Part shown: one piece after another, positions 2,064 to 22,200 of the stretch | How positions within the stretch are numbered: position 1 is the stretch's first letter | Layout: each line of letters opens with the position of its first letter | Assembly (NCBI RefSeq): GCF_000425405.1 | Contig: NZ_KE384364.1 | Coordinates: forward strand, 172,345-236,344 | Length of the DNA: 64,000 nucleotides | Direction: 5' to 3' | From: Ferrimonas kyonanensis DSM 18153 | GTDB taxonomy: Bacteria; Pseudomonadota; Gammaproteobacteria; Enterobacterales; Shewanellaceae | Program-made: the position numbers and the translations under genes | The notes under the pieces: generated by a model | Database searches by the model: none | Told to the model about the DNA's origin: nothing | What the model saw: the letters and a program-made list of their open reading frames with translations, nothing else

Positions 2064-2090
2064 AGCCCACCGCAAGGTGGGCTTTTTTTA
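2064..2090 (+). terminator. tmRNA intrinsic terminator
   Basis: Arms AGCCCACC (2064-2071) and GGTGGGCT (2076-2083) close a GCAA tetraloop, followed by a run of T. The stop codon of the convergent Fic gene (2088-2090) lies inside the T-run. Confidence 0.92.
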
Positions 2091-3215
2091 TGTCAGATTC
2101 CCCCTATCCTGGCTGCCGTCACAGCGAAACAGCAGTGCATCCATCTCCATCCACGCCGCCAGCACCATCGGGCACTCAAACACCCGCTGCCCCTTTGGGT
2201 GACGCAAGCGGTGTTCGGTCAACAGGCCATAACTCAGTAACTCCTTCAAGGTGCCATCGGCCCGTTCGATGGGCCAGCGCTGCTGGCGCATCAGTTGCTG
2301 GTGAGTGGTGATCGGCTGCTGATACAGGGTAGCAATCAAGGTGGCGGCATCGGCACTGGGCAAGCGCATGGCCAACTGCTGTTGCACCTGACGGTGCGCG
2401 CTCAGCACACAGTCATCGAAACGCGCACTGATGGCCACGCTCCAGTCCAGCGCCCGCTGCCAGAAGGCAAATACCCCTTGCCACTGACCGTCTTCCAGAG
2501 CGGTAGTGGTGTCGAAATAGCCCTTATGACGCTGGCTGAGTCGATACAAAATCGGGCTGACAAACCGGCCCTCACTGGCCATCGACAACCGAAACAGGTG
2601 ATCACACAGCACCCGGTTCACTCGCCCGTTGCCGTCGTTAAACGGGTGCAGGCAAATAAACTGTGTGGTGCAGGCGATGGCCTGACCGATGTTCCAGAGC
2701 GACACCTCTCGCACGTACTGGCACCAGTCCCCCACCAACCGATGTAGAGTTTCTGGCGACGGTGGCACCCAGTTAGCACTGTCCGGTGAATGACCACCAA
2801 TCCAGTTTTGTACCTCACGAATGCGGCCGGAACGTGGGTGATGGGGATCCAGCGTATGGTGCAGCTGACACAGCAAGGTTTGAGAGAACGGCTGCCCCTG
2901 CAATAACTCGATGCCACGAAGGTAAGCCTCGGCCTGCTCATGCACCGATTCCGCCAGCGGATCGGCGGTGGCCAGCCCGGCGGCAATCAACCCCAACCGG
3001 CGTCGGGACACGGTGCGTCCCTGCTTCAGGCACACGCCGCCGCCCAGGTAACGGGCCAGAAAACGGCTGTAATCGAACGCCACCGGTAACGGCGCTTTGG
3101 CAAACATCGGCGCCTGGGGCGCCTGTTGAAACGGAATTCGTTGTTCACTCAATCCCGGCGGAATGAAGCACTGATACTCAGCGTGGGTTGCCGGCCAAAT
3201 CTTGGTTAGGTACAT
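2088..3215 (-). CDS. Fic domain protein (putative AMP-transferase)
   Basis: Fic proteins transfer AMP (or other nucleotide groups) from NTPs to hydroxyl side chains of target proteins. The 375-residue product carries a complete active-site motif HPFNDGNGR with the catalytic His at about residue 190, and the flap/β-hairpin region GRIREVQNWIGG at about 130-141 followed by VPPSPE. The C-terminal part (about 290-350) looks like a winged-helix domain. In class II Fic proteins an inhibitory helix with S/T-x3-E-G/N lies about 20 residues before the segment equivalent to EQAEAYLRGIELL (92-105); here that place reads SRRRLGLIAAG, with no inhibitory glutamate evident. The target is unknown and no antitoxin-like small ORF is seen beside it. 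It sits convergently against tmRNA, whose 3' end is a common integration site, so acquisition by transfer is plausible. Confidence 0.88.
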   Translation of the reverse strand: MYLTKIWPATHAEYQCFIPPGLSEQRIPFQQAPQAPMFAKAPLPVAFDYSRFLARYLGGGVCLKQGRTVSRRRLGLIAAGLATADPLAESVHEQAEAYLRGIELLQGQPFSQTLLCQLHHTLDPHHPRSGRIREVQNWIGGHSPDSANWVPPSPETLHRLVGDWCQYVREVSLWNIGQAIACTTQFICLHPFNDGNGRVNRVLCDHLFRLSMASEGRFVSPILYRLSQRHKGYFDTTTALEDGQWQGVFAFWQRALDWSVAISARFDDCVLSAHRQVQQQLAMRLPSADAATLIATLYQQPITTHQQLMRQQRWPIERADGTLKELLSYGLLTEHRLRHPKGQRVFECPMVLAAWMEMDALLFRCDGSQDRGNLT

Positions 3216-6065: not shown

Positions 6066-6082
6066 AAATGATAACTATTAGC
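6066..6082 (+). promoter_or_regulatory. Fur-box-like site
   Basis: AAATGATAACTATTAGC matches the Fur 7-1-7 pattern (TGATAAT-n-ATTATCA) at about 11 of 14 positions and lies immediately upstream of the ribosome-binding site of the 6091 gene, where Fur would block transcription. A second site of similar quality is at 6961. Identified by eye only. Confidence 0.5.
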
Positions 6083-6090
6083 GGAAGCAA

Positions 6091-6459
6091 ATGTCGTCGT
6101 CGCTGAAAAAGTTGAAGAAGTTGGCCAAAGCCGGCCGCACTGCCACAGCCAAGCCAACTCGCATCTTGCCGGGCCCGTCGCCCCAGGTGCGCAGTGAACT
6201 GCTGGCCATCACCCAGGATGCCGGTCTTTCTGCCGCCCGGGAATTGATGAGCCCGCTAAATCCGCTGTTGTCGTGGTTTAATGAGGGCGGCAACCTCACC
6301 TTTCGACCGATGAACTCAACCGCCCAGGCGCCTCAATCCAGAGCCGTCACCAACAACCTGTCCCTGGCCCGCCTGCCACTGAAATCCCCGCCCTGCAAGC
6401 GCTGTCCAGCCAGGATGGGCGGCATCTGCAACTGCGCCCGTAAAAAATTCGCCCTGTAA
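6091..6459 (+). CDS. Small basic protein with C-terminal four-Cys motif, hypothetical
   Basis: A 122-residue protein starting at ATG 6091 after GGAAG. The N-terminus is strongly basic (KKLKKLAKAGRTATAKP). The C-terminus carries CKRCPARMGGICNCARKKF, a C-x2-C-x7-C-x-C arrangement that could bind zinc, iron or a cluster. I do not recognise the family. A Fur-like box just upstream suggests iron control, and the gene lies next to the putative iron-organelle cluster, so a role in iron handling is possible but inferred from context. No signal peptide or membrane segment is visible. Confidence 0.6.
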   Translation: MSSSLKKLKKLAKAGRTATAKPTRILPGPSPQVRSELLAITQDAGLSAARELMSPLNPLLSWFNEGGNLTFRPMNSTAQAPQSRAVTNNLSLARLPLKSPPCKRCPARMGGICNCARKKFAL

Positions 6460-6586: not shown

Positions 6587-6946
6587 TCAGGCAAACGCCA
6601 ACGCGCGGACCATGGTGGGACCGATGGCTCGCTTCAGCGCCATCATTGCCACCCCTTTCACCAGGGTCTTAGAACCGTTTTTCACCGCATTTTCGACAAA
6701 GGCGCTGCGCTGCTGGCTGCGTAACCAGCCATGGCTCTCAACGGTCTCCAGTAATGAATCGGCATCGATCTCATTATGATCAAACACAATCGCCACCGAG
6801 CCAGCGTAACGCTTATGGGTTACACTCAGTACCGCGTCAATCTCTTTAAGTTGCTCAATCAGCTCAGCCACTTGCTCAGGGTGATTGAGAATGAACTCGG
6901 ATCGAACCCGCAGGCGACGCTCTGTCTTGTGAATGTAGGTACTCAT
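6587..6946 (-). CDS. HMA2-like small protein of the ferrosome-like cluster
   Basis: I use the ATG at 6946, which has AGGA seven bases upstream; an in-frame ATG at 6976 lies in the Fur-like box and is less likely. The 119-residue product contains an HMA2-like βαββαβ domain (RLRVRSEFI, then helix, IDAVLSVTHKRYAGSVAIVFD, then ESHGWL) without the CxxC metal motif of classical HMA domains, followed by a basic/hydrophobic tail (VKNGSKTLVKGVAMMALKRAIGPTMVRAL) that could lie on a membrane. It is transcribed divergently from the ATPase operon across a 150-base shared promoter. HMA2-type proteins are typical companions of P1B ATPases in ferrosome (fez) clusters. Function is inferred from this context. 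Confidence 0.75.
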   Translation of the reverse strand: MSTYIHKTERRLRVRSEFILNHPEQVAELIEQLKEIDAVLSVTHKRYAGSVAIVFDHNEIDADSLLETVESHGWLRSQQRSAFVENAVKNGSKTLVKGVAMMALKRAIGPTMVRALAFA

Positions 6947-6960
6947 AACAACATCCTGAA

Positions 6961-6975
6961 TGAGATTGATTACCA
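6961..6975. promoter_or_regulatory. Fur-box-like site in the divergent promoter of the ferrosome-like cluster
   Basis: TGAGATTGATTACCA matches the TGATAAT-n-ATTATCA Fur pattern at 11 of 14 positions. It lies between the divergent HMA2-like genes (starts at 6946 and 7097), next to a TATACT hexamer at 6978-6983, so Fur bound here could control both directions. Confidence 0.5.
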
Positions 6976-7096
6976 TTTATACTAGCTTGTTTCTTACAGG
7001 AAAACAACGGAAATTCTTTGATCCAGGACAGGTTTTTGGATGCTTTTTCGTGTGAGAATCCGCTTTATTCTTCCTGCCACTAGTTGATTGATATTT

Positions 7097-7444
7097 ATGA
7101 CCGAATGGACTTCAGAAGTCTTAAAACTGAGACAGTGGGTGCACGTCGCCCACCACATCCCCGGGCGCATAAGACTGAAGTTCAACTCCACGCTGATCAC
7201 CCAGATGGCGCGATTTAAAGCCGAAAAAGCGATGGAGCAGGCCACCCAGTTTCCGCCATTGAAACGCTACCAACTGAACACCAGCAGCAACAGCCTGATC
7301 CTGGAATACGATCACGGTGTGATTTGCCCTGATCTGCTGGATCAGCTGTTTAGCCCATGCGAGCAGCAGGCCAGCAATGCCTGCACCACACTGATCACCA
7401 CCTTAACCCCAATTTATCAAGCCGGAGTCAATCACAATGAGTAA
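7097..7444 (+). CDS. HMA2-domain protein of the ferrosome-like cluster
   Basis: A 115-residue protein starting at ATG 7097 (a TTG at 7088 is in frame but unlikely). Residues about 10-80 form an HMA2 domain whose first strand carries HHIPGRIRLKF, the same motif (HHIPGR-V/I-R) found at the N-terminus of the P-type ATPase at 8704. CxxC is absent, so classical soft-metal binding is not expected. The C-terminal 35 residues contain two Cys in CEQQASNAC. It is the first gene of a five-gene operon whose members overlap each other; its stop overlaps the next start by eight bases. In characterised ferrosome clusters, small proteins with this motif are needed alongside the ATPase; role here inferred. 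Confidence 0.82.
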   Translation: MTEWTSEVLKLRQWVHVAHHIPGRIRLKFNSTLITQMARFKAEKAMEQATQFPPLKRYQLNTSSNSLILEYDHGVICPDLLDQLFSPCEQQASNACTTLITTLTPIYQAGVNHNE

Positions 7445-8129
7445 CAAGGACGAGCAAAACATGGCGTACCCACCTTACGGTTACCCCCATATGCACCCCC
7501 ATTATCAACACCCGGCGATGTACCCCTATCCGCCGCACATGCATCAGCCAATGTACCCACACATGCAGCAGCAGATGCCACCTCAAATGCAGCAGATGCA
7601 CCAACAGATGCATCAGCAGCAGGTGCCCCACGGCCATCACCCCCACTACGCTCAACCGCCGCACCAGGGCCAGCAGCAAGACTCCGGCTTTGATCCACTG
7701 ATGGCTCAAGGTCAGCAGATGCTGGAAGGACTGATGGGCGAACAAGCCGGTATTTTCAAAGACCTGATGCACAAGCTGGGTGTGGACGACAAAGAGTTCT
7801 GGAAAGGGGCGATGATCGGCGCGGCAGCGGCACTGATCCTCAGTAACGACAACGTCCGTGGCAACCTGATGAACCTGGTCAGCGGCGCCGGCGACATGCT
7901 GAAAACCGGTACCGATAAAGTCAAACAGACCGCCACTCAAACCGCCTCCAGCGTCAGCGACAACGTCTCCATGACCAGCGATGTGTTTAAGGATACTTTC
8001 GCCGCCGGTAAGGCCGGGTTCAAAGAATCCGTAGAGCGTCATCGTCAACCCGAGGCCGACAAGGCACCGCAAGCCGCCGCGCCACAGGCCGAGGCCCCGG
8101 TAGCCGAAGCGGACGCCGGTAATGAGTAA
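7437..8129 (+). CDS. His/Met/Tyr/Pro/Gln-rich membrane protein of the ferrosome-like cluster
   Basis: A 230-residue protein in three parts. Residues about 9-85 are a low-complexity region built almost only of H, M, P, Y and Q, with roughly 17 His and over 15 Met, a composition suited to binding metal or to condensation. Residues about 95-145 include a Gly/Ala-rich hydrophobic helix (WKGAMIGAAAALILS) then an amphipathic region. The C-terminus is a YtxH-like helical stretch (LKTGTDKVKQTATQTASS...FKDTFAAGKAGFKESVERH) with an Ala/Glu/Pro tail. It overlaps the genes on both sides by eight bases. No named family is recognised; the single membrane helix and metal-binding-type N-terminus suggest a scaffold or cargo-binding role at the organelle membrane. 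Confidence 0.8.
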   Translation: MSNKDEQNMAYPPYGYPHMHPHYQHPAMYPYPPHMHQPMYPHMQQQMPPQMQQMHQQMHQQQVPHGHHPHYAQPPHQGQQQDSGFDPLMAQGQQMLEGLMGEQAGIFKDLMHKLGVDDKEFWKGAMIGAAAALILSNDNVRGNLMNLVSGAGDMLKTGTDKVKQTATQTASSVSDNVSMTSDVFKDTFAAGKAGFKESVERHRQPEADKAPQAAAPQAEAPVAEADAGNE

Positions 8130-8433
8130 TGGCTCCAACCAACTGAGCCCGGCCAGCCGCACCATGATTGCCAGCGCCTTGCTGGGAGGCACGGCATCGG
8201 CGGTATCACAGTGGTCTCAGTACCAGAATGGCGAACTGGCGGTGAACGACATGACCACCAAGGTGCTCAAGGACGCGGCCAAAGCCGGTCTGGCCGGTGG
8301 CGTGGCCACCGCCGTGGCCGGACAGATGGCCGGCAGGCCGGTGTTGTCTCTGGCCACCGTGCTGTGCGCCGGTGCCGCCAGCCTCTACCTTATTGACGAA
8401 TTAATGGAAAATCGCAATGAACAAGACTCCTAA
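8122..8433 (+). CDS. MamC-like two-helix membrane protein of the ferrosome-like cluster
   Basis: A 103-residue protein with two hydrophobic Gly/Ala-rich helices (about residues 14-28 with ASALLGGTASAV, and about 62-92 with LSLATVLCAGAASLYLI) flanking a polar helix QYQNGELAVNDMTTKVLKDA. The order GG-helix, charged loop with G/K-E-x-x, AGLAGGVATAVAG, then a second helix ending in charged residues follows the layout of the magnetosome protein MamC/Mms13, whose loop contacts magnetite. The likeness is judged from memory of that family. It overlaps its neighbours by 8 and 17 bases in the ATPase operon. An organelle-membrane role is inferred. Confidence 0.75.
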   Translation: MSNGSNQLSPASRTMIASALLGGTASAVSQWSQYQNGELAVNDMTTKVLKDAAKAGLAGGVATAVAGQMAGRPVLSLATVLCAGAASLYLIDELMENRNEQDS

Positions 8434-8704
8434 TCCCTATTACTACCCTTACGCTCAGCAGCCTGTGCAGTCTCAGCCTGCGCCTTACCAGAGCCAGAAC
8501 TCCCGCACCCACCTGCTGACCGGGTTGGTCGCCGGCGCGGCCGTGGCCTACCTGCTGTCCAACAAGAAAGTGCAGCAAGGCGTTGCCAACACCGGCACCA
8601 AGGTGTGGTCAACGGTTCGTGGTGAAGTGGAAGAGCTCAAGGAGCGCCTGGAAGACACCCAGGCCGAACTGGAGTACTACCGCAACCTGCATAAGGAAGA
8701 CTGA
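8417..8704 (+). CDS. YtxH-like small membrane protein of the ferrosome-like cluster
   Basis: A 95-residue protein with a Tyr/Pro/Gln-rich N-terminus (NPYYYPYAQQPVQSQPAPY), one short hydrophobic helix (LLTGLVAGAAVAYLLSNKKV, about 32-50) and a C-terminal coiled-coil-like helix (VRGEVEELKERLEDTQAELE, about 69-88). The layout echoes a shortened version of the 7437 protein, whose N-terminus is also rich in Tyr, Pro and Gln. Its stop codon overlaps the ATPase start (TGATG). No named family beyond the YtxH-like appearance; anchoring or spacing role at a membrane is inferred. Confidence 0.78.
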   Translation: MNKTPNPYYYPYAQQPVQSQPAPYQSQNSRTHLLTGLVAGAAVAYLLSNKKVQQGVANTGTKVWSTVRGEVEELKERLEDTQAELEYYRNLHKED

Positions 8705-10764
8705 TGACTCACGTTGTGGTCAAACACCACATTCCCGGACGCGTTCGCTTCAGGCTCGGGGCTGCCCAGCCCTTAGAGGGTCTGTCGGAGTGGCTGCGAC
8801 TGGGACTGCTGTCGGTGCAAGGCGTGCAATCGGTTCGGGTCAACGAAGCGGCCCAGTCACTGGTTGTGAGCTACGACGCCGACCTGATTCAATACCAGCA
8901 AATCAGCGAACGGCTGCAGCAACTGGACTGGCAACAGGCGGTTCAGGGCGACAGTGAGCACCAGTTTACCCGGGGTGACATTGCGCTCAATACCCTGGGT
9001 CTGCTGGCCGCCTGCTTCATTCCCAAAGGCTACGCCGCCGCCTCCACCCTGACCCTGATCGCACCGACCCTGAACGAAGGGGTCGAGCAGCTCAAGGACA
9101 AAAAGCTGGGCGTGGAGGTGCTGGATGCCATCGCCATTGGCCTGTCGGCCTGGCGCGGCGATTACAAGACCGCCATGCTGACCCAGACCCTGCTGTCCAC
9201 CGGTGAGTACATGGAGCAGGAGACCAGTCGCAACAGCGATAACCTGCTGGCGGAGCTGATGCAGCCGAAGCACAGCACCGTATGGGTAGTCCGTGACGGC
9301 CAGGAGCAACAGATCAGTTCCGAGGCACTGGTGCTCAGCGACGAAGTGTTGCTGGGACCGGGTGACATGGTGCCCGCCGACGGTCACATTGTCGACGGCA
9401 CGGCCCTGGTGAACCAGGCCAGCCTGACCGGTGAATCGGTCCCGGTGCGCCGGGAAGACGGCGCCTACCTCTATTCCGGCACCGCCATCCACGACGGTAA
9501 GGTCAGGATGCGCATCGACAAGGTCGGCAGTGAAACCACCACCGCCCAGATCGCCGCCATCATCGCCCAGTCCCTGGGCGAAAAGAGCCAAACCCAGCTG
9601 GCGACTCAGGAGATGGCCGAACGACGGGTGAAAATCACCCTGGCCATCGGTACCGCAGTCTTCGCCATGACCCGGGATCTGGAGCGACTGGCGTCGGTAT
9701 TCCTGGTGGACTACTCCTGCGCCCTGAAGCTGTCCACACCGGTCACCTTCAAGTCGATGATGTACCGTGCCGCCAAGCAGGGGCTGCTGCTTAAAGGCGG
9801 CCGTGCCATGGAAAACCTGGCTCAGGTCGACACCTGTGTGTTCGATAAGACCGGTACCCTGACCTATGGCGATCTGGAAGTGACCGACGTGATCTGCCTG
9901 CGAGAGCAGGAGAACGCCAAGGAGTTGCTGGCCATGGCCGCCTCGGTGGAGGAGCACTGCAATCACCCGCTGGCCCAGGCCATCGTCAACGCCGCCAAGC
10001 ACCACGCCCTGCCCCATATCGAGCACGGCGAAGTGGATTACGTCATCGCCCATGGACTGAAAAGCTCCATCAATGATCATCCGCTGGTGATTGGCAGCCG
10101 CCACTACCTGGAAGCCCATGAAGGGGTCGACTTCAGCAGCCTGGAGCAAACCATCGGCCAGTTGGAGTCGGAAGGGAAGCATCTGCTGTTCATGGCCAAT
10201 GAACATCAGCCCATCGGGGTGATCGGTCTGCGGGATACCCTGCGCCAGGAGGTGCAGCAAACGCTGCAGCAACTTCGCGACAGTGGCATTCGCAACCTGG
10301 TGCTGCTCACCGGTGACACCGCCTCCAAGGCGCGTCAGTTGACCGAGGAACTGGGTTTCGACCTGTACTTCGCCGAAGCGACTCCGGACAGCAAAGCCGA
10401 AGTGGTGGACAAGCTGCAACAGCAGGGGCACAAGGTGCTGTTTGTCGGCGACGGCGTCAACGACGCCCCGGCCTTGTCTCAAGCGGACGTCGGCCTGGCC
10501 ATGGCCACCGGTACCGACCTGGCCCACCTGGCGGCTGACGTGGTGCTGTTGCAGGACAACCTGTTGGGCATCGCCCAGGCACGGCAACTGGCACAGGAGG
10601 CGATGACGCTGATCAACAGCAACATTCGCCTGACCGAAGTGGTCAACAGCGGCATCATGCTGGCCGCCGCCATGGGCTGGCTCAATCCGGCAGCCAGTGC
10701 GCTGTTGCATAACGGCACCACCCTGGCGGTGCTGACCCGGGCCATGGCAGCCCGCAACGGCTAA
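8704..10764 (+). CDS. fezB: P1B-type metal-transporting ATPase, FezB-like
   Basis: A 686-residue heavy-metal P-type ATPase. An N-terminal HMA2 domain (about 1-75) carries HHIPGRVRFRL instead of a CxxC motif. Core motifs are present: TGES (242-245), SCALK in the sixth membrane helix (338-342) in place of the CPC of copper pumps, the phosphorylation site DKTGT (Asp381), the HP motif in HCNHPLAQA, GDGVNDAP (582-589) and the late HNGTT. The SCA-type membrane motif and HMA2 domain, and the company of small HMA2 and MamC/YtxH-like proteins, match the P1B-6 ATPase FezB that loads iron into ferrosomes. It ends the operon and a strong terminator follows. ATPase class is certain; iron specificity and the fezB name are inferred from motif and context. 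Confidence 0.8.
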   Translation: MTHVVVKHHIPGRVRFRLGAAQPLEGLSEWLRLGLLSVQGVQSVRVNEAAQSLVVSYDADLIQYQQISERLQQLDWQQAVQGDSEHQFTRGDIALNTLGLLAACFIPKGYAAASTLTLIAPTLNEGVEQLKDKKLGVEVLDAIAIGLSAWRGDYKTAMLTQTLLSTGEYMEQETSRNSDNLLAELMQPKHSTVWVVRDGQEQQISSEALVLSDEVLLGPGDMVPADGHIVDGTALVNQASLTGESVPVRREDGAYLYSGTAIHDGKVRMRIDKVGSETTTAQIAAIIAQSLGEKSQTQLATQEMAERRVKITLAIGTAVFAMTRDLERLASVFLVDYSCALKLSTPVTFKSMMYRAAKQGLLLKGGRAMENLAQVDTCVFDKTGTLTYGDLEVTDVICLREQENAKELLAMAASVEEHCNHPLAQAIVNAAKHHALPHIEHGEVDYVIAHGLKSSINDHPLVIGSRHYLEAHEGVDFSSLEQTIGQLESEGKHLLFMANEHQPIGVIGLRDTLRQEVQQTLQQLRDSGIRNLVLLTGDTASKARQLTEELGFDLYFAEATPDSKAEVVDKLQQQGHKVLFVGDGVNDAPALSQADVGLAMATGTDLAHLAADVVLLQDNLLGIAQARQLAQEAMTLINSNIRLTEVVNSGIMLAAAMGWLNPAASALLHNGTTLAVLTRAMAARNG

Positions 10765-10811: not shown

Positions 10812-11184
10812 GCCGATTTTCCCCATCAGAACCGGCGCCGAGAAATTGCGCCATTCGAGCAATTTCCCACCACCCCTTCGGCGATGTGGCAGCGGGTTCT
10901 CGAGACGACTGGTCAGACCGCGAAAAACGCGAAATGTTGTTGCTTGATCATCTTTAAAATCCGGTTGTCGAGCACAAAAAGCCCGCCAAATGTCGCCACC
11001 ATCACACAAACCTATGATTGAGAAGGGTAAAAGCGCTTATTCCTTAACAAATTGGATAAGCCGGCCACACTAATCTTGTAACTTTACAAGTAAAAACTTT
11101 CAATTTGAGTGCCAAAATGTGACATCTCTATCGGAAGTCTGTTCAAGTGTGATTTATCATTTTTCGTCCTATTTCTAACGGTTG
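10812..11184. other. Intergenic region upstream of nqrA
   Basis: About 370 bases without a gene. It contains an inverted repeat GAAATTGC/GCAATTTC (10842-10849 and 10859-10866, nine-base loop) and further down a perfect palindrome listed separately. The stretch 11040-11180 is AT-rich and should hold the nqr promoter, but no unambiguous -35/-10 pair could be picked by eye. Confidence 0.6.
11075..11090. promoter_or_regulatory. Perfect 16-bp palindrome upstream of nqrA (putative operator)
   Basis: CTTGTAA-CT-TTACAAG, seven-base arms with a two-base centre, about 100 bases before nqrA. The regulator is not known; it does not match CRP, FNR or TyrR consensus. Confidence 0.4.
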
Positions 11185-12552
11185 ATGTTTGCGATGGCGA
11201 GTTCCTCAGACCAGGTAAAAACAATAACGAAGGGCCTAGATGTGCCCATTGCCGGCCAGCCCCGGCAACTCATTGAATCCAGCCTGAGCCCATCCCACGT
11301 AGCCCTGCTTGGCGAAGAGTACGCCGGGCTCAAACCCACCATGATGGTGGAGGTGGGTGACGTGGTGAAGAAGGGCCAGCCTTTGTTCGAAGACAAAAAG
11401 AACAAAGGGGTGATCTACACTGCGCCCGCCAGTGGCGTGGTGACCGCCATCCACCGGGGGGCCCGCCGGGTGCTGCAGTCAGTGGTGATTCGCATCGAAG
11501 GCGACGAGGCGATGCAGTTCGATGCCTACGACGACCTGACCTCACTGTCCCGCACCCAGGCACAATCCAACCTGATTCGCAGTGGCCTGTGGACCGCCCT
11601 TCGCACGCGTCCGTTTTCCCGGGCTCCGCAGCCGGGCAGTGCCCCGGCGGGCATCTTTGTCACCGCCATGGACACCAACCCTCTGGCGGCGGATCCCCGA
11701 ATCATCATCGACGAACAGGCACGCGCCTTTGCCGATGGCCTGGCGGTACTGACGGCACTCACCGACCACAGCGTTCATCTATGCCATGACGATCAAGGCA
11801 GCCTGCCTGGGCACGACCTGCCTCGGGTCGAGAGCCATCGTTTCGGTGGCGTCCACCCGGCCGGGCTGGTGGGCACCCACATTCACCATATCCTTCCGGT
11901 GAGCCTGGAGCGCCAGGTGTGGCACATCGGCTACCAGGACGTCATTGCCGTCGGCAAGCTGTTCACCACCGGTGAGCTGTACACCGACCGAGTGGTTTCC
12001 CTGGCCGGACCCAGCGTTGCCCAGCCGCGACTGGTTCGAGTACCTCAGGGGTCAGAGTTAACGCCACTGCTGCAGCAGGAATTGAAGCCGGGATTCTCCC
12101 GAGTGGTGTCCGGCTCACTGCTGTCTGGCCACACCGCCGCCGGCCCACGGGATTTTCTGGGGCGTTACCATAACCAGATTTCCGCCCTGACCGAGGACAC
12201 TCAGCGCCAATTAATGCCCTGGGCCCGTCCCAGCCGTCAGCGGTTCTCCATCGCCCGGGCGGTTACCTCGCTGTTCACCCGCAACAAGAAGTTCGACCTG
12301 ACCACCCACTCCGGCGGCTCCAAACGCGCCATCGTGGCCTATGGCCAGTTCGAAAAGGTGATGCCGCTGGACATTCTGCCGACCCTGCTGCTGCGTGACC
12401 TGATCTGTCAGGACACCGACGAAGCCCAGGCCCTGGGGGCATTGGAGCTGGACGAAGAAGATTTGGCCCTGTGCACCTTTATCTGCCCGAGTAAATACGA
12501 CTTCGGCAAAGAGCTGCGCACCTGCCTGGACATTATTGAGAAGGAAGGGTAA
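11185..12552 (+). CDS. nqrA: Na+-translocating NADH:quinone reductase subunit A
   Basis: NqrA is the peripheral subunit of the NQR complex on the cytoplasmic side of the inner membrane. The family start region (ITKGLDVPIAG), the VALLGEEYAGLKPTM and VGDVVKKGQPLFEDKK motifs, APASGVVTAIHRGARRVLQS and the C-terminal CTFICPSKYDFG are all present. Length about 455 against a usual 445, owing to an extended N-terminus; ATG codons at 11185 and 11194 and a TTG at 11182 are all possible and none has a strong ribosome-binding site. Its last base is the first base of the nqrB start codon (TAATG). First gene of nqrABCDEF. Confidence 0.97.
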   Translation: MFAMASSSDQVKTITKGLDVPIAGQPRQLIESSLSPSHVALLGEEYAGLKPTMMVEVGDVVKKGQPLFEDKKNKGVIYTAPASGVVTAIHRGARRVLQSVVIRIEGDEAMQFDAYDDLTSLSRTQAQSNLIRSGLWTALRTRPFSRAPQPGSAPAGIFVTAMDTNPLAADPRIIIDEQARAFADGLAVLTALTDHSVHLCHDDQGSLPGHDLPRVESHRFGGVHPAGLVGTHIHHILPVSLERQVWHIGYQDVIAVGKLFTTGELYTDRVVSLAGPSVAQPRLVRVPQGSELTPLLQQELKPGFSRVVSGSLLSGHTAAGPRDFLGRYHNQISALTEDTQRQLMPWARPSRQRFSIARAVTSLFTRNKKFDLTTHSGGSKRAIVAYGQFEKVMPLDILPTLLLRDLICQDTDEAQALGALELDEEDLALCTFICPSKYDFGKELRTCLDIIEKEG

Positions 12553-13760
12553 TGACTGATCACAACCAACGTGGCCAGGACGCCTACTACGCCCACGGTA
12601 ACTCCATGAAGGATTACCTGCGCTCGCTGTTCATCACCTATGCCCGGCCGACGTCGGGTAAGGTGCACGTTCGCGATGGCATCGACGTAAAACGCACCAT
12701 GCACGTGGTGATGCTGTGCCTGATGCCAGCGATGCTGTTTGGCATGTACAACCAGGGGCTGCAGGCTCAACTGGCGCTGCAAGCCGGTGCGACCGCCGCC
12801 GATGCCTGGCAACTGGGCGTGTTTAACGCCCTGTTCGGCCCCCTCGGCCAGGACAGCTCCGCCGTGGCACTGTTTGGCTACGGCGCCAGCTTCTACCTGC
12901 CCATCTACGCCACTGCACTTCTGGTTAACCTGTTCTGGGAAGTGGTGTTTGCCCGGGTCCGTAACCAGGAGCTGCACGAAGGCTTCTTCGTCACCTCCAT
13001 GCTGTTCGCCCTGGTGGTGCCAATCTCCACCCCGTTGTGGATGGTCGCCATGGGCATCAGCTTTGGTGTGGTGATGGCCAAAGAGGTGTTTGGTGGCATG
13101 GGCTGCAACTTCCTCAACCCCACTCTGGCCGGCCTGGCGTTCCTGTACTTCGCCTACCCCACTGTCTTTGGTGCCAGCGGTCAACTGGTGGCCGTGGATG
13201 GCTTCAGCGGCGCCACCACTCTGGCCCAGGCGGCAGCGGGCAAAGTCCCCTTTGCCGACTACCCCTGGTATCAGGCTTTCAGTGACGCCGCCTGGTGGGA
13301 TGCCTTCCTCGGCTTCACCCCCGGCGCCGTCGGTGAAACCAGCACCCTGGCCCTGCTGATTGGCGGCAGCCTGTTGATGCTGTCGAGCCTGGCCTCCTGG
13401 CGCATTGTCGGCGGGGTGTTCATCGGCATGGTCGCCACCGCCACCCTGTTCAACCTGATTGGCTCCACCACCAACCCCATGTTCGCCATGCCGTGGACCT
13501 GGCACCTGGTTAGCGGTGGTTTTGCCATCGGCATGCTGTTTATGGCCACCGACCCGGTCACCAGCACTTACACCCGTAAAGGCCGCTGGGCCTACGGTGT
13601 ACTGATCGGGGTGATGGCGGTATTGATTCGGGTTATCAACCCCAAGATGGCCGAAGGCATGATGCTGGCGATCCTGTTCAGCAACCTGTGGGCACCGATT
13701 TTCGATTACCTGGTGGCGCGAGCCAACATCAAACGGAGGCAGGCACGCAATGGCCTTTAA
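12552..13760 (+). CDS. nqrB: Na+-NQR subunit B
   Basis: Membrane subunit of NQR that carries covalent FMN and riboflavin and forms much of the sodium channel. The 402-residue protein has several hydrophobic segments and the flavinylation motif DGFSGATT, with the acceptor Thr at about residue 222. Also typical are GGMGCNFLNPTLAGLAFLYF and MATDPVTSTYTRKGRW. It overlaps nqrA by one base and nqrC by eleven, consistent with coupled translation. The FMN is attached by ApbE, for which no gene is present in this operon. Confidence 0.97.
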   Translation: MTDHNQRGQDAYYAHGNSMKDYLRSLFITYARPTSGKVHVRDGIDVKRTMHVVMLCLMPAMLFGMYNQGLQAQLALQAGATAADAWQLGVFNALFGPLGQDSSAVALFGYGASFYLPIYATALLVNLFWEVVFARVRNQELHEGFFVTSMLFALVVPISTPLWMVAMGISFGVVMAKEVFGGMGCNFLNPTLAGLAFLYFAYPTVFGASGQLVAVDGFSGATTLAQAAAGKVPFADYPWYQAFSDAAWWDAFLGFTPGAVGETSTLALLIGGSLLMLSSLASWRIVGGVFIGMVATATLFNLIGSTTNPMFAMPWTWHLVSGGFAIGMLFMATDPVTSTYTRKGRWAYGVLIGVMAVLIRVINPKMAEGMMLAILFSNLWAPIFDYLVARANIKRRQARNGL

Positions 13761-14511
13761 TAAAGATTCTGTGCTCGGCACCATGACCTTCAGTGTGGTG
13801 TTGTGCCTGCTGTGTTCCTTTATGATTACCGGCACCGCCGAAGTCTTGAAAGAGCGCAAGCTGGTCAAAAAACGCAGTGAGCTGAAGCGCTACGTACTGG
13901 TGGCCGCCAACATTGAGGGCGACGTCGAAGAGATGTTCGACAAGCACGTCACCCCGGTGCTGGTGAACCTGGACAGCGGCAAGGCCGCCGACCTGAGCGA
14001 AAAAGAGATTCTCGACTTCGATGACCGCATGGCAGCCATCAACCCGGATACCTCGATCAAACCCAAAAAAGATCTGGCCCGCATCAAGCGCCGCGCCAAT
14101 CAGGCCCGAGTATTTAAAGTCGTCGACGATAACGGCCAGTTGACCAGCGTGGTAATGCCGATTCACGGCAAAGGGCTGTGGTCTGTGGTGTATGGCTTTG
14201 TGGCGATTCAGCCCGATCTCAACACCATCGAAGGGCTGGTGATCTCCGAGCATGGCGAAACCCCCGGCCTGACCGATTTCCTCAAGGATCCGCAGTGGCT
14301 TAAGGGCTGGCACGACAAGCAGATCTTCGACGACAGCGGCAAGCCGGTACTGGCAGTGGTCAAAGGCGGCGCCAAAGCCGGCGACAGCCACGGCATCGAT
14401 GGCGTCAGTGGCGCCACCAAAACCGGACGCGGTTTGCAAAAAGCCGTGCGCTTCTGGTTCGGCCCCGAAGGCTACCAGACCTTCCTGAACACCTTGAACA
14501 AGGAGGCCTGA
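13750..14511 (+). CDS. nqrC: Na+-NQR subunit C
   Basis: Single-span membrane protein whose periplasmic FMN-binding domain receives FMN from ApbE. The 253-residue product has one N-terminal membrane helix ([15 protein letters not shown]) and the flavinylation motif [10 protein letters not shown], acceptor Thr at about 223. [18 protein letters not shown] and HGETPGL are family signatures. Starts inside nqrB and is followed one base later by the GTG start of nqrD. Confidence 0.97.
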
Positions 14512-14512
14512 G

Positions 14513-15127
14513 GTGAGTAACGCAACCAAACAGGTTCTGACAACCCCGATTTTTGCCAACAACCCGGTCGCCATGCAGGTGCTGGGGGTGTGCTCCGCCC
14601 TGGCGGTCAGTAACTCCATGGAAACCGCCGTGGTAATGACCCTGGCGGTAACCTTTGTACTGGTGTTCTCCAACCTGATTATCTCGCTGATCCGCAAGAT
14701 GATCCCCAACAGCGTGCGCATCATCGCCCAGATGACCGTCATCGCCTCGCTGGTGATTGTGGTCGACATGGTGATGCAGGATGTGGCCTATGAACTGTCG
14801 CAGAAACTGTCGGTGTTTGTTGGTCTGATCATCACCAACTGCATCGTCATGGGGCGGGCGGAAGCCTTCGCCATGAAACACGGCCCACTGATGTCAGTGG
14901 TGGACGCCCTGGGTAACTCCATGGGGTACGGCGTGATCCTGATCGGCGTCGGCTTTGTCCGCGAACTGCTGGGCAGCGGCACCCTGTTCGGCTACGAGGT
15001 GATCACCACCGCCGAAAACGGTGGCCTGTACCTGGCCAACGAGATGTTCAAGATGCCCCCCAGCGCCTTCTTCCTGATCGGACTGATGATCTGGGCCATC
15101 CACGTCATTCAGCGCAAAAAAGGCTAA
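14513..15127 (+). CDS. nqrD: Na+-NQR subunit D
   Basis: Integral membrane subunit (204 residues, about six helices), paralogous to NqrE and homologous to RnfE; the two subunits share an iron site between their half-helices. Visible signatures are [30 protein letters not shown] and [10 protein letters not shown], with the conserved membrane cysteines. The start is GTG at 14513, supported by AGGAGG six bases upstream in the end of nqrC. Confidence 0.97.
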
Positions 15128-15136
15128 GGAATCTCC

Positions 15137-15745
15137 ATGGAACATTACATTAGCCTGTTTATGCAGGCGGTCTTCATCGACAACATGGCGCTGTCGTTCT
15201 TTATGGGCATGTGCACCTTCCTGGCCGTGTCCAAGAAGGTGTCCACCTCCTTTGGCCTTGGCGTCGCAGTCATCGTGGTTATGGCGCTGGCGGTGCCGGT
15301 AAACCAGCTGATCTACGTTAACTTTCTGAAACCAGGCGCCCTGGCCTGGGCCGGCCTGCCCAACCTGGATCTGAGCTACCTGAAGCTGATCACCTTCATC
15401 GGCGTGATTGCCGCCCTGGTGCAGATTCTGGAGATGGTACTGGATAAGTACGCGCCGGCCCTGTACCAGACCCTAGGGATCTTCCTGCCGCTGCTGACGG
15501 TCAACTGCGCCATCTTTGCCGGCGTGATCTTCATGGCCAACCGCGACTACAACATGACCGAATCGGTGGTGTTTGCCCTGGGTTCCGGCACCGGCTGGGC
15601 CATGGCCATTGTGCTGCTGGCGGGCTTGCGCGAGCGGATGAAGTTCTCTGCCATCCCTGAGGGGCTGCAGGGGATTGGCATCACCTTTATTTCCACCGGA
15701 TTGATGGCGCTGGGCTTTATGGCCTTTGCCGGCGTCTCTCTGTAA
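15137..15745 (+). CDS. nqrE: Na+-NQR subunit E
   Basis: Integral membrane subunit (202 residues), inverted-topology partner of NqrD and homologous to RnfA. Signatures: [23 protein letters not shown] with a membrane Cys, and [13 protein letters not shown] with the second. ATG at 15137 follows AAGGAATCTCC. The next gene, nqrF, starts 29 bases on. Confidence 0.97.
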
Positions 15746-15774
15746 CCGAATCACCAGATTAAGAAGGTAACGCA

Positions 15775-16995
15775 ATGGAAATGGCAATCGGCATCAGCAT
15801 GTTCACCGTGGTGGTGTGCCTGCTGGTCGCGGTGATTCTGTTCGCCAAAAGCAAACTGGTCGCCAGTGGCGACGTCACCATCGGCATCAACGACGATCCG
15901 GACAAAACCGTCACCACCCCTGCCGGCGATAAACTGCTGGGCGCCTTGGCGGGCCAGGACATCTTTATCCCCTCCGCCTGTGGCGGCGGCGGTACCTGTG
16001 GTCAATGCCGGGTGCACGTGAAAAGTGGCGGTGGTGAGATTCTGCCCACCGAACGCGATCACATCACCAAGAAAGAGGCCAAAGAGGGCTGTCGTCTCGC
16101 CTGCCAGGTGGCCGTGAAAGGCGACATGGAGCTGGAGCTGGAGGAGGAGATCTTCGGCGTTAAGAAGTGGGAGTGCGAGGTGGTCTCCAACGACAACACC
16201 GCCACCTTCATCAAAGAGCTGCGTCTGAAGATTCCGGAAGGGGAAGAGGTGCCATTTAAAGCCGGTGGCTACATTCAGATTGAAGCCCCGGCGCACCACG
16301 TCAAGTACAGCGATTTCGACATTCCGGATGAGTACCGTGATGACTGGGACAAGTACAACCTGTTCGAGCTGGAGTCTCGGGTCGACGAAGACGTACTGCG
16401 AGCCTACTCCATGGCCAACTACCCGGATGAGAAAGGCCTGATCATGCTCAACGTGCGCATCGCTACGCCGCCGAGCAACGACCTGCCTCCGGGCAAGATG
16501 TCGTCGTTCATCTTTAACCTCAAGGCCGGCGACAAGGTCACCATCTCCGGACCCTTTGGCGAGTTCTTCGTGAAAGAGGACAGCGATGCAGAGATGATCT
16601 TCATCGGCGGCGGCGCCGGTATGGCACCGATGCGCTCGCACATCTTCGATCAACTCAAGGGCAAGCACACCAAGCGCAAAATGAGCTTCTGGTACGGTGC
16701 CCGCTCCACTCGGGAGATCTTCTATCAGGAGGATTTCGATACCCTGGCGGCCGAAAACGACAACTTCGAGTGGCATGTGGCGCTGTCGGATCCGCTGCCG
16801 ACCGATAACTGGGACGGCTACACCGGCTTCATTCATACTGTGCTGCTGGAAAACTACCTGAAGAACCACAAAGCCCCCGAGGATTGTGAATTCTACATGT
16901 GTGGACCGCCAATCATGAACTCCTCGGTGATCACCATGCTTAAAGAGCTGGGTGTCGAGGATGAGAATATCCTGCTGGATGACTTCGGCGATTGA
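15775..16995 (+). CDS. nqrF: Na+-NQR subunit F (NADH dehydrogenase)
   Basis: Electron entry subunit: accepts hydride from NADH to FAD, then passes electrons through a [2Fe-2S] cluster. The 406-residue protein has an N-terminal membrane helix (about 3-24), a plant-ferredoxin-type cluster motif [10 protein letters not shown] with a fourth Cys in GCRLACQ, the FAD motif RAYSMANYP and the NADH-binding [19 protein letters not shown] and CGPPIMN. Full length. A small hairpin lies between it and nqrM. Confidence 0.98.
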
Positions 16996-18399: not shown

Positions 18400-19239
18400 A
18401 TGAGAACTGGCTTACTTTTAGTCGCTCCCATTTTATGGGCTGCGTCTTTTTTGGTGCATGCCGAAAATATTCAGGACCGGTGGGTTACCCCTGAGAAAAG
18501 CCGCTGGTCTGGCTTTATTAGCTTCGACTACACACAAAACAAATACAGCGCAAACGCATATCTATCTGAGCGGATATATTCTGGAACCGCCATTATTAGA
18601 TACGCGCTTAATAAAGACTCTCGGCTCCAGGCGGTAATCTCCGGCTATCATTCAGACGACGGTGACGACTACGGCAGCCAGGGTGACTTCTGGAATGACA
18701 CCTCCCTGTCATGGTCAGAAAATAATGTATGGAATCCGACAGATAGCGTAACAATGAGCACCGAACTGCGGGCTATATTCCCCACTTCCAGGCTGTCGCA
18801 ACGGCAGGATCTGGAGTTTTCTGTGCGGGGTGGAGTGCGATTCAGTTTCGATCTCAGCGAATACGTAAAGGGGCTTTATATAGGCAACAATATAAGGCTA
18901 AGAAAGAACTTCCATGAATACGAAAGCGCGGGTGGTCAGCCGATGACCGAATATCAACTCAGCGACTTAATCACCATGGATTACTTTTTTGCAAAACGAT
19001 TCAATTTCAGTGCTTACATTATCGTTCGCCAGAGCTGGAATTACGACGGTGGAGATTTCTACCCTGACCTGATTCACGGGGAAGAGTTCGGTTATCAGTT
19101 ATCCGACAACATCGACCTCGCTTTAGGTATGACCAATGGCATTACCTATTACAACCAAGCACGCGGCACGAATCCAATTCACGATCTGATCGACTTGGAC
19201 AAAATGAACTTTTATTTCGTCGCCAACTACCAGTTTTAA
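18400..19239 (+). CDS. Putative outer-membrane β-barrel protein
   Basis: A 279-residue protein with a signal peptide (ending near VHA) and alternating amphipathic β-strands throughout (RWSGFISFDYTQN, SGTAIIRYALNKDSRLQAVIS, LEFSVRGGVRFSF). It ends MNFYFVANYQF, with the C-terminal aromatic residue recognised by the Bam machinery. Roughly 12 strands. No substrate is evident. It is immediately followed, without spacing, by the lipoprotein protease gene, so the two probably form an operon. Codon use is richer in A/T than the rest of the window. Confidence 0.75.
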   Translation: MRTGLLLVAPILWAASFLVHAENIQDRWVTPEKSRWSGFISFDYTQNKYSANAYLSERIYSGTAIIRYALNKDSRLQAVISGYHSDDGDDYGSQGDFWNDTSLSWSENNVWNPTDSVTMSTELRAIFPTSRLSQRQDLEFSVRGGVRFSFDLSEYVKGLYIGNNIRLRKNFHEYESAGGQPMTEYQLSDLITMDYFFAKRFNFSAYIIVRQSWNYDGGDFYPDLIHGEEFGYQLSDNIDLALGMTNGITYYNQARGTNPIHDLIDLDKMNFYFVANYQF

Positions 19240-19257
19240 ATGAACAGGAACTCACTC

Positions 19258-22200
19258 ATGTTTAAAAGGATAGCGATTGCCGTCGCCATCAGTGCCGCAT
19301 TGGCGGGCTGTGGCACCGAAGAGCGGCCCTATGACGTCTATGAACGACCGGCGGAAGAGATCACCACCGCCTCTCTGGATACCGAATCACTGTGGCTGTT
19401 TATGCCCTCCACCGGCGCCGCCCCTCGCTACGCGATGACTCAGCGTGGCTTCTTCCAGGGCGACCCAAAACTGGTCACCCTACGTTTCGATGAAGACAAT
19501 GGTATCTACGCCGAAGAGGTGGATCGCGATAAGCTGACCATGGATGGCAAAAGCCGCTGGGGTGACGACATCAACCTTGCCCCGGTGCTGAAGATTCCCG
19601 GAAAGTTCCGAAGCTATCGCTGTGCCCTCAACGCCTATGATGAGTGCACCAACAAGGAAGAGGTCAACGAGGACGAAAACGTCGAGTGGGACGAAAAAAC
19701 CCACTTCGTTCCAAAATACTCACAAGTTAAGGCTTTAGCCCAGGACAGCCTGACCTGGTACACCTCCAGCAATGTGGAAGAGTCCGCTGACCCGCGCCTG
19801 ATTTCCTACGAATACGATCCAGAAAAAGGCGTTATCAACATTGAAGTTGAGCGTACCTTTACCGCCGATCCTGAAGATCAGTATGAGTTTGGCTACGACT
19901 TAGAAAATCTGTCTTTCAAGACCCGCTTCTTCTACTCCCTGGTGAAGCTGGACAAGCTGATCACCCCGGATTACCAGCCAGTCTACTATCAGGGTCGGGA
20001 TCGCGCCTACTACGGTTTTTTCAACGACGCCAAAGAGCAGCGTACCGACACCGGCGAGACCAATGTTCAGGGCAGCGTTTACAGCTTGCTGAACCGCTTC
20101 GCGCCTAACCAGGACAGCATCGACTACTACCTGAGTGACAACTACCACGAAGAGGGCAACGAGCTGTACAAGCGCGTTACCATGGAGAGCATTACTGACA
20201 TCAATAAGTCGCTGGAAGGTACCGGTGTGCCACCCATCCGCATCGTTAACCCTAACAGCAAGGCTGGTATCCACACAGGCGATCTGCGCTACAACGTGCT
20301 GAACCTGATCACCGACCCGGTGGACAACGGTCTGCTGGGTTACGGCCCATCCGCCACCAACCCGCTGACCGGCGAAATTGTTCACGCCCACGTCAACCAG
20401 TACGCCGGTGTAATCCGCAGTGCCACTCGCTCTGTATGGACCCAGTTGGTGATGCGCTACAACCGCCAGGAGATTGTCCGTCCTGATGAGTACAAGCCAG
20501 AGCCAGAGACTTCAGAGGGCGGAACCGATACCTCAGGGATCACTCCAGAGATCGTAGCGCCTAAGATTGGTGATGACGTAGTGGTGCGCAGTGTTAGCAC
20601 AGATGAGATCGAGCAGCTTCTGAATCGAGGTGATGATCACGGCCTGCACCTGCACGAGCACAAGCATGACTGGAACACTGCCAATCCGGATCTGGCCACT
20701 CAATCCTTTAACAAGCATCAAGAGCGTCTGCAGAAACTCTCCGAGCAAAACGCTTTTGCCGTCGAGTTTATGTGGCTGAGCACCCAACAGAAAGGCCTGA
20801 TCAAGGGCATCAACTACCTGGAAGGTGGCTACTTTGCCAACGAAGAGAACACTCAGCTGAAAGCCTGGGACGATCTGACTTCCGCACAGCAGACCGAAGT
20901 CAGCGACGCCATTGCCGAGCACATGTTCCGCTCCACCCTGGTTCACGAGCTGGGTCACAACCTGGGTCTGCGCCATAACTTTATGGGCTCCGTAGATAAG
21001 GCCAACTTCTACTCTGAAGAGGAAGCCAAGGCCAAGGGCATGGACAAAGTCCCCGCTTACAGCTCCATCATGGACTATGCGGGCTCCGTTTTCGATGAAC
21101 TGCCTACCTATGGTAAGTACGACATCGCAACCCTGCGCTTTGGCTATGGCCGTCAGGTAGAGACTGAACTGGCTACCACTGTCGACAACGAAGAGACCGG
21201 CCTTCCAGAAGTAAAAACTGAGAAGAAATACCTCTCTGTAGCAGACCTGGATGCCAACCTGGCTAAGGACTTCAACGCCTACCCAACCGGTATTGTTCAG
21301 CATATGCGGGACAACTACATGGAAACGGACCAGGTCAAAGATCTGGAGCTCGGCGATAACCAGACTCTGAAACTGGCTCAATTTAACTACTGTACCGACG
21401 AGCACACCACCACCTCAGTGCTGTGTAACCGCTTTGACGAAGGTACAGATATCAATGAGATAACCGAGTTTCGAATCCAGCGTTACCACGACAGCTATGA
21501 CACCATGAACAAGCGTAATGGTCGTCAAAGTTTCCATCAGTTCCACCAGTACAACTATTTCCTCAGCCGCTGGGATCAGTTCCTGCAGATTCGTGATGTT
21601 ATTGAAAACGTAGAAGAGATCGACTATCTGTTTGCACGTTATCTGGGCATCAGTGAAGAGCGTAACTCCCAGGGTCAGTCCATGAAACAGATCTACAACG
21701 CCAGCTGCCGTTGGAAGGACTTCGACACCCTGTCTCCTGGGCTGAAGAACCTCTGCACCACCTATGAGGCGTCTCGAACTGCGGCCCAGTTCTTCATCGA
21801 TGTGATGACTGAAACCGACAAGGTGTGTGAGATCGAAGAGATTGCCACTGGCGTAGAAAACCGGGTGACCTTCCGGACTCTGTCAGATCTGTGGAAGGAC
21901 TACCGTGGCCACCCCGCTGTCTCCAAGAACCGCGACATTCCTACCAGCTGTTTTGATCCTGAACTGGTGACTGCCCTCGAGGGTGAAAGCAACCCCATTA
22001 AGGTGCGCTCCGAAACCAAAGATGGTCGTATTGAAGCCAGCCTGCAGGCCAACAACCCTCACCAGAGCTCTGTGACCTCTGTTGATCTGCTGGGTACCTG
22101 GCCTGACAAGTTGCTGGCCGCCCAGATGCTGGTCCGTCGTGACAGCCCCTATGTGGATACAGAGAACTCCAGCCTGGCACTGCTGGATATCGACTATGAC

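Follow-up and report, generated by a model that had tools for sequence, protein, structure and literature searches.

A seven-gene fez-type locus in Ferrimonas kyonanensis, with a distant MamC homologue among its constant parts, probably encodes a ferrosome

Ferrosomes, bacterial iron organelles described only recently, are assembled in ways that are still poorly understood, and a short run of genes in Ferrimonas kyonanensis DSM 18153 raises the question of whether this organism builds one and, if so, from which parts. The run lies in a stretch of 64,000 nucleotides, hereafter the window (assembly GCF_000425405.1, contig NZ_KE384364.1, positions 172,345 to 236,344 of the forward strand), from a 4.93-Mb genome in 40 contigs. 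An earlier note, made from the letters alone, had read positions 6587-10764 as a candidate ferrosome (fez-like) cluster around a P1B-type ATPase. Our analysis supports this reading at the sequence level, through the clade of the ATPase, the gene content, a Fur-like site and the iron genes beside relatives of the cluster, and extends the cluster to a seven-gene locus of fez type that likely builds a ferrosome, a membrane-bounded iron store.

Five of the seven genes form a forward-strand run in which each overlaps the next, as the note had seen, by 8, 8, 17 and 1 bases. They encode a small HMA2-domain protein that carries HHIPGR and lacks CxxC (hma1, 7097-7444, beginning at the ATG at 7097 of a frame that opens at 7088); a protein with a His/Met/Pro/Gln-rich N-terminus and a Gly/Ala-rich helix beginning FWKG (PHM, 7437-8129); a 103-residue homologue of MamC, recognized by profile and profile-profile matches (8122-8433); a small YtxH-like protein with a Tyr/Pro/Gln-rich N-terminus, a Gly/Ala-rich helix and a charged tail (8417-8704); and the FezB-type ATPase (8704-10764). 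A divergent gene on the reverse strand, hmaR (6587-6946), encodes a further small HMA2-domain protein; its open reading frame begins at 6976, and the start conserved in relatives is at 6946. The names hmaR, hma1 and PHM are our own labels. The note's description of the divergent gene as a third HMA2-like gene holds, as only three genes genome-wide exceed the HMA_2 (PF19991) cut-off, every one of them in this cluster. The six genes that the note had delimited thus stand, but the extent it gave was too small: a forward-strand gene at 6091-6459, convergent with hmaR and encoding a Lys-rich protein of 122 residues with a four-Cys C-terminus (hereafter the Cys protein), also belongs.

The cluster is not a chance assembly: all 17 related clusters, here meaning the examined loci with a FezB at 59% identity or more to that of the window, contain the complete set of seven genes, and in 15 of them the genes are contiguous and in the same order. 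In locus L054 two further reading frames separate the Cys-protein gene from the rest, and in L217 a distant MamC-like gene is placed after fezB. When flanks were compared across the window, nine loci from other genomes and a Vibrio replicon, the Cys-protein gene proved common to all eleven and was kept although most flanking genes vary between loci; six further loci from an order-wide search carry it as well. In a set of 40 genomes, the window's own plus 39 relatives, an orthologue of the ATPase is present in the own genome, in seven of 13 congeners and in a single genome from another family; these nine, and no others, have the MamC-like gene. Across the phylum, eight of 398 genomes (its own included) carry such an ATPase at E≤1e-90, and across the order 12 of 247 carry FezB (at least 524 bits), from first-look searches that scored two and four candidates per genome, respectively. 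The MamC-like gene is found in ten of those 247 genomes and the full-length Cys protein (at least 82 bits) in the same ten, all FezB-positive. One copy of the unit resides on a 1.7-Mb Vibrio replicon; a conjugative Cereibacter plasmid carries a more distant relative of the cluster. The patchy distribution, together with the changing flanks, suggests that the unit has been transferred or relocated as one block. Iron genes stand beside relatives of the cluster, namely FeoA and TonB receptors in Cereibacter and FeoB in a gammaproteobacterial metagenome-assembled genome (MAG). A conserved seven-gene unit with strict co-occurrence offers a defined parts list for an organelle of this class.

The ATPase bears the features that the note had singled out: an HMA2 N-terminus (HHIPGRVR) without CxxC, and SCALK in place of CPC (DYSCALK at the metal site). 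We take SCA to be the P1B-6 motif. In a tree of 103 of 120 P1B ATPases, 17 near-duplicate or redundant rows having been removed beforehand, the window's enzyme falls inside a 40-row clade of SC(A/G)xK-type enzymes with a Shimodaira-Hasegawa-like approximate likelihood ratio test (SH-aLRT) support of 96, a few of whose rows show AC or CC instead of SC. Within this clade it belongs to a 22-row proteobacterial and campylobacterial subclade (SH-aLRT 100), the other subclade (18 rows, SH-aLRT 100) holding Clostridia, Mailhella (Desulfovibrionaceae), a deltaproteobacterial MAG and Methanobacteria. All 47 CPC, five SPC and four CPG rows lie outside the 40-row clade, and in this tree the ATPase does not group with Cu, Zn or Co exporters, in agreement with the note's reading. 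The clade likely contains the proven ferrosome pumps. Six residues are invariant in 24 aligned members (D336, C339, N640, N648, H669 and N670). A predicted model (mean pLDDT, the predicted local distance difference test, 82.5) has an HMA-like N-terminal domain and, as we read it, eight membrane helices, two of only 14 residues (90-103 and 137-150); at 334-336, ahead of SCALK, a helix is broken. Among solved structures it comes closest in fold to Cu, Cd and Zn P1B ATPases, and the overall P1B fold is common to it and to pumps of the CopA/ZntA type (4bbj, 7r0g, 4umw); these, in contrast, have CPC rather than SCALK, and the window's HMA2 domain lacks CxxC. Two observations on related enzymes may be recorded here. 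In a neighbouring ATPase branch (L087, L090, L093), found in two cyanobacteria and one Chloroflexi MAG, D(F/L)xxGIR replaces the Cys motif at the metal site. In genome G323 (L048/L062) a FezB-like ATPase has an in-frame TAG inside the match, possibly marking a pseudogene or an assembly error.

Sites resembling Fur boxes accompany the unit. The box between the divergent genes of the window (6961-6975), TGAGATTGATTACCA, agrees with 11 of 14 consensus positions, and its counterpart in the relative G496 is a perfect palindrome, TGATAATCATTATCA, with 14 of 14. At 14 of the 16 related loci scored (the start of the seventeenth was missed by the search pattern), the top-scoring Fur-like 15-mer sits 11-19 bases away from where the divergent gene has its conserved start. 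A second site, just upstream of the Cys-protein gene (6069-6083), likewise agrees with 11 of 14 positions; its shuffle p is 0.004 in the window and below 0.02 in six of 14 loci scored, three of the 17 being unscored, and no convincing site was seen at this place in L052 or L222. The pattern TGAGANTGATTNNCAT has two exact matches in the genome and its reversed control none; the second match precedes a DUF3450 gene, a family that we take to be part of TonB-type iron-uptake operons. The module is probably iron-controlled, and these sites suggest that Fur may be the regulator.

The sole NCBIfam match of the 103-residue protein at E≤0.1 is MamC (NF038051; 36.2 bits, E 5.5e-9), spanning positions 14-94 of 97, a score that does not reach the equivalog cut-off of 100 bits. 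Ten of 13 MamC-like proteins of fez clusters that were tested match the same model at E≤6e-5, from organisms ranging over Sulfurospirillum, Arcobacter, Rhodomicrobium and Hahella. Run against the 398 genomes, the model finds matches at E≤1e-5 in 16 of them; 13 of these matches exceed the cut-off (at least 118 bits) and are taken, from these scores, to be magnetosome MamC, while each of the three below it belongs to a fez cluster. In the reverse direction, a profile of the fez proteins recovers all 13 MamC proteins (E 2e-11 to 2e-17, in a small set), and hhalign joins the MamC and fez profiles at 98.3% (E 1.2e-14) over 94 columns. A profile built from MamC only gives 14 fez proteins 20.8-44 bits; among 7,835 open reading frames of the loci (some places repeated), it matches at E≤0.1 only MamC and the fez MamC-like genes. 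The loci behind this set, and behind an iterated fez-profile search, had mostly been retrieved because of a P1B ATPase or MamC, so the specificity of the link rests on the whole-genome searches. Because the NCBIfam, genome, reciprocal, hhalign and MamC-only-profile results agree, and the reciprocal similarity is significant over the core, as expected of a member of the MamC superfamily, we regard the 103-residue protein, on its sequence profiles, as a distant homologue of MamC and not a MamC equivalog.

Such a resemblance might instead be convergent, produced by two Gly/Ala-rich helices and uninformative about function. Helices of this composition can yield false matches, and three of the 13 fez proteins (L066, L144, L145) have no NF038051 match and are missed by the MamC-only profile too, the L066 stretch tested against NF038051 having started too far upstream. 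Yet 14,000 composition-matched shuffles never exceeded 15.2 bits with the MamC-only profile, well below the real proteins; the below-cut-off matches in the 398 genomes fell in fez clusters only; and the loop between the helices aligns without gaps to that of four of five MamC rows. We regard convergence as unlikely. A second alternative starts from homology itself: the MamC relative could signal an ordered mineral, in a magnetosome-like or other mineral-forming vesicle, rather than an amorphous store, and a ferritin-like domain in sister clusters (described below) may be counted in its favour. The MamC-like score, however, is far below that of an equivalog, and of six proteins scanned with NCBIfam one matched a magnetosome family, no genome search for other magnetosome genes having been made; we think a mineral-forming vesicle highly improbable. 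Homology to MamC remains the reading we prefer. The window protein shares with MamC (Mms13) Gly/Ala-rich helices and a loop of nearly equal length across the 94 aligned columns, and differs in its score of about 35-36 bits and in having no counterpart of KYAWD, a stretch that MamC carries towards the end of its core. The loop between the two helices of MamC is held to face the magnetosome lumen, and MamC chiefly modulates the size and shape of magnetite (PMC6206293). No link between MamC and fez clusters was found in the titles, abstracts or passages searched, which did not extend to the primary ferrosome papers, and the same texts gave no description of the MamC homologue and the four-Cys protein as constant parts of such a cluster.

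The N-terminal 120 residues of PHM contain 12.5% His, 12.5% Met, 14.2% Pro and 19.2% Gln, and across 17 orthologues His ranges from 4 to 16% and Met from 7 to 17%. In Arcobacter and the gammaproteobacterial MAG, the PHM slot is filled by a DUF2202/rubrerythrin-like domain with a C-terminal helix (L146:4336-5019 and L075:6883-7629); the Pfam DUF2202 match is above cut-off in the MAG (E 1.1e-6) and below it in Arcobacter (0.0024), and the C-terminal helix shows a weak likeness to PHM (E 0.0015-0.0046). Since a ferritin-like module occupies the same slot elsewhere, the analogy suggests that the PHM arm may handle iron too. For the YtxH-like protein, the YtxH match is below the Pfam cut-off. The Cys protein has a Lys-rich N-terminus (SSLKKLKKL), no hydrophobic segment and a conserved C-terminal consensus, PLKSPPCKRCPA..GG.CKCA.KKF, whose four-Cys motif (CxxCP, then CxC) is invariant; neither Pfam nor NCBIfam gave a family match. 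Its profile also picks up weak matches elsewhere, among them a second Cys-type gene in the window's own genome (L205, G000:C12:125506-125802). A wider Lys-rich family with an ending like PxKSxPCKxCPAxxxGxCxCAxKK (L194-L204) occurs in genomes without a FezB match, and the two members tested have no NCBIfam match above cut-off.

The note had called the small partners membrane proteins with Gly/Ala-rich helices; the helices are there, but they are only weakly hydrophobic, and among the six small proteins the 103-residue one alone contains a stretch of 19 residues that averages at least 1.4 on the Kyte-Doolittle scale. The pump shares this property. FezB-type ATPases average 2.1 segments at or above that threshold (n=43), compared with 7.3 for CPC (n=57) and 6.1 for SPC enzymes (n=7), so that pumps of the CopA/ZntA type have far more strongly hydrophobic segments. 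On the octanol scale the means are 4.4 for FezB-type against 8.2 for CPC enzymes, and FezB-type rows differ from CPC, SPC and CPG rows pooled with a Mann-Whitney p of 3.5e-15, a figure to be read with the relatedness of the rows in mind. The weak hydrophobicity may mean that the ferrosome membrane is unusual or that these proteins are inserted by a special route.

How does the unit compare with known ferrosome systems? Grant et al. reportedly described a six-gene operon in S. putrefaciens in 2022. With the fez clusters of D. magneticus, S. putrefaciens, R. palustris and C. difficile the unit has in common an HMA2-bearing SCA-type P1B ATPase, small accessory proteins, an overlapping operon and, putatively, Fur-like control. 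Two hallmarks of a fez cluster are present, a P1B-6-type ATPase in a clade of its own (in a tree without proven FezB rows) and a compact operon in which small HMA2 and Gly/Ala-rich proteins are encoded next to it; the four-Cys protein and the MamC homologue, constant members here, may set the unit apart from the published operons. R. palustris CGA009 makes ferrosomes from six fez genes, a number similar to our seven (PMC12016538), C. difficile ferrosomes require FezA and FezB, both Fur-repressed (PMC12574912), and FezC of D. magneticus is a DUF4405-like cytochrome (PMC11334425). We built a FezC-like profile from three small two-His proteins of other clusters (L058, L059, L146), of which only the L146 row has a DUF4405 match (E 0.0079, below cut-off). 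It matches its three source genomes, the L075 genome strongly and a Hahella MAG genome weakly, and gave nothing in 18 of the 23 genomes or records searched, a set that left out G496, G444, G541, G470, G547 and G553. DUF4405 matches elsewhere in the window's genome lie in frames of 215-505 residues. FezC is thus likely, though not securely, absent from the unit, and it is not a universal fez feature, because only FezA and FezB are named for C. difficile.

A ferrosome is not the only function that such a locus could serve. It might export or detoxify iron or another metal, its ATPase pumping Fe(II) or another divalent metal out of the cell across the inner membrane with the help of small accessory subunits and without any organelle. 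P1B ATPases are generally efflux pumps, the organelle is deduced from genes alone, and the ATPase passes the generic heavy-metal cut-off of NCBIfam and that of its cadmium family (357.9 against 313.5 bits), as does a clostridial member of the same clade. An exporter nevertheless fits poorly with an ATPase clade separate from the CPC, SPC and CPG pumps and with three Gly/Ala-rich accessory proteins, one of the MamC family, and the Fur-like control points to a unit made when iron is scarce, as suits a store to be filled on refeeding more than an efflux system; we consider an exporter unlikely. Besides the cadmium-family score and the three fez proteins unmatched by the MamC model, several observations count against the ferrosome reading or its parts. 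The name FezB rests on motif, clade and gene content, and in the tree the FezB-like group has four CPC rows as its nearest neighbours, with one SC-type row (L080) placed immediately outside the 40-row clade. By profiles, two of the 12 FezB genomes of the order (G514 and G554) are without the MamC-like and Cys-protein genes, their FezB being the most distant of the 12 (41% identical); no MamC-like gene turned up in clusters L058-L062, some of them truncated by contig ends; and the MamC model matches only three of the eight FezB-bearing genomes of the phylum set. The Cys profile has 12 weak matches besides its full-length ones (25-42 bits), nine of them to the C-terminal motif only. With the three-row profile, nothing FezC-like was found in the window's genome, nine other seven-gene genomes or the Vibrio replicon. 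At the divergent promoter, shuffle p was below 0.05 in nine of the 16 loci and at least 0.1 in the other seven, and these Fur-box values, coming from mononucleotide shuffles of related loci, are not independent.

If the locus does build a ferrosome, its parts could work as follows. Under iron starvation Fur would leave the divergent promoter, where the Fur-like site is seen, and the unit would be made. PHM, the MamC homologue and the YtxH-like protein may come together and mould a vesicle membrane into which FezB is taken up. Once iron returns, FezB would use ATP to pump what is presumably ferrous iron into the lumen, through a site that should contain the invariant D336, C339, N648, H669 and N670, and the three HMA2 domains might dock at the pump or pass metal on. 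The His/Met-rich arm of PHM and the MamC-like protein may bind iron or nucleate mineral, a role suggested by the ferritin-like domain that replaces PHM elsewhere and by the function of MamC in magnetosomes. The four-Cys protein could be a soluble sensor of iron or redox state or a release factor, which is a guess.

A MamC relative in a fez unit hints at a part common to two bacterial iron organelles, ties ferrosomes to magnetosomes and makes their shared origin a testable question. Rhodobacter capsulatus is a laboratory organism with a related cluster; the iterated fez profile matches its MamC-like gene, and the MamC profiles do not. We put forward one joint reading tentatively, as a combination that we would sooner doubt than believe: that ferrosomes and magnetosomes share an inherited part, the MamC family having arisen or first served in fez clusters, as a protein that shapes the vesicle and contacts the mineral, and later been recruited by magnetotactic bacteria (or the reverse); that the ferrosome envelope is not an ordinary bilayer, the weak and partly short helices suiting a thin or protein-rich membrane; and that the four-Cys protein may take over a redox step served elsewhere by FezC.

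The surroundings of the unit hold further genes. Na+-NQR genes lie directly downstream (11182-16995) and are probably unrelated to it, because among the relatives compared nqrA is near the unit only in G005. A gene pair encoding proteins of 279 and 1328 residues, the latter met-zincin-like (18400-23226), adjoins the fez unit in L050 and L051 and is separated from it in the window by the nqr genes, a shift that is a sign of local rearrangement. Upstream, at 2088-3215, lies a gene for a Fic/DOC-domain protein (PF02661, E 1.8e-13), and beside it a reading frame of 775 residues without a Pfam match.

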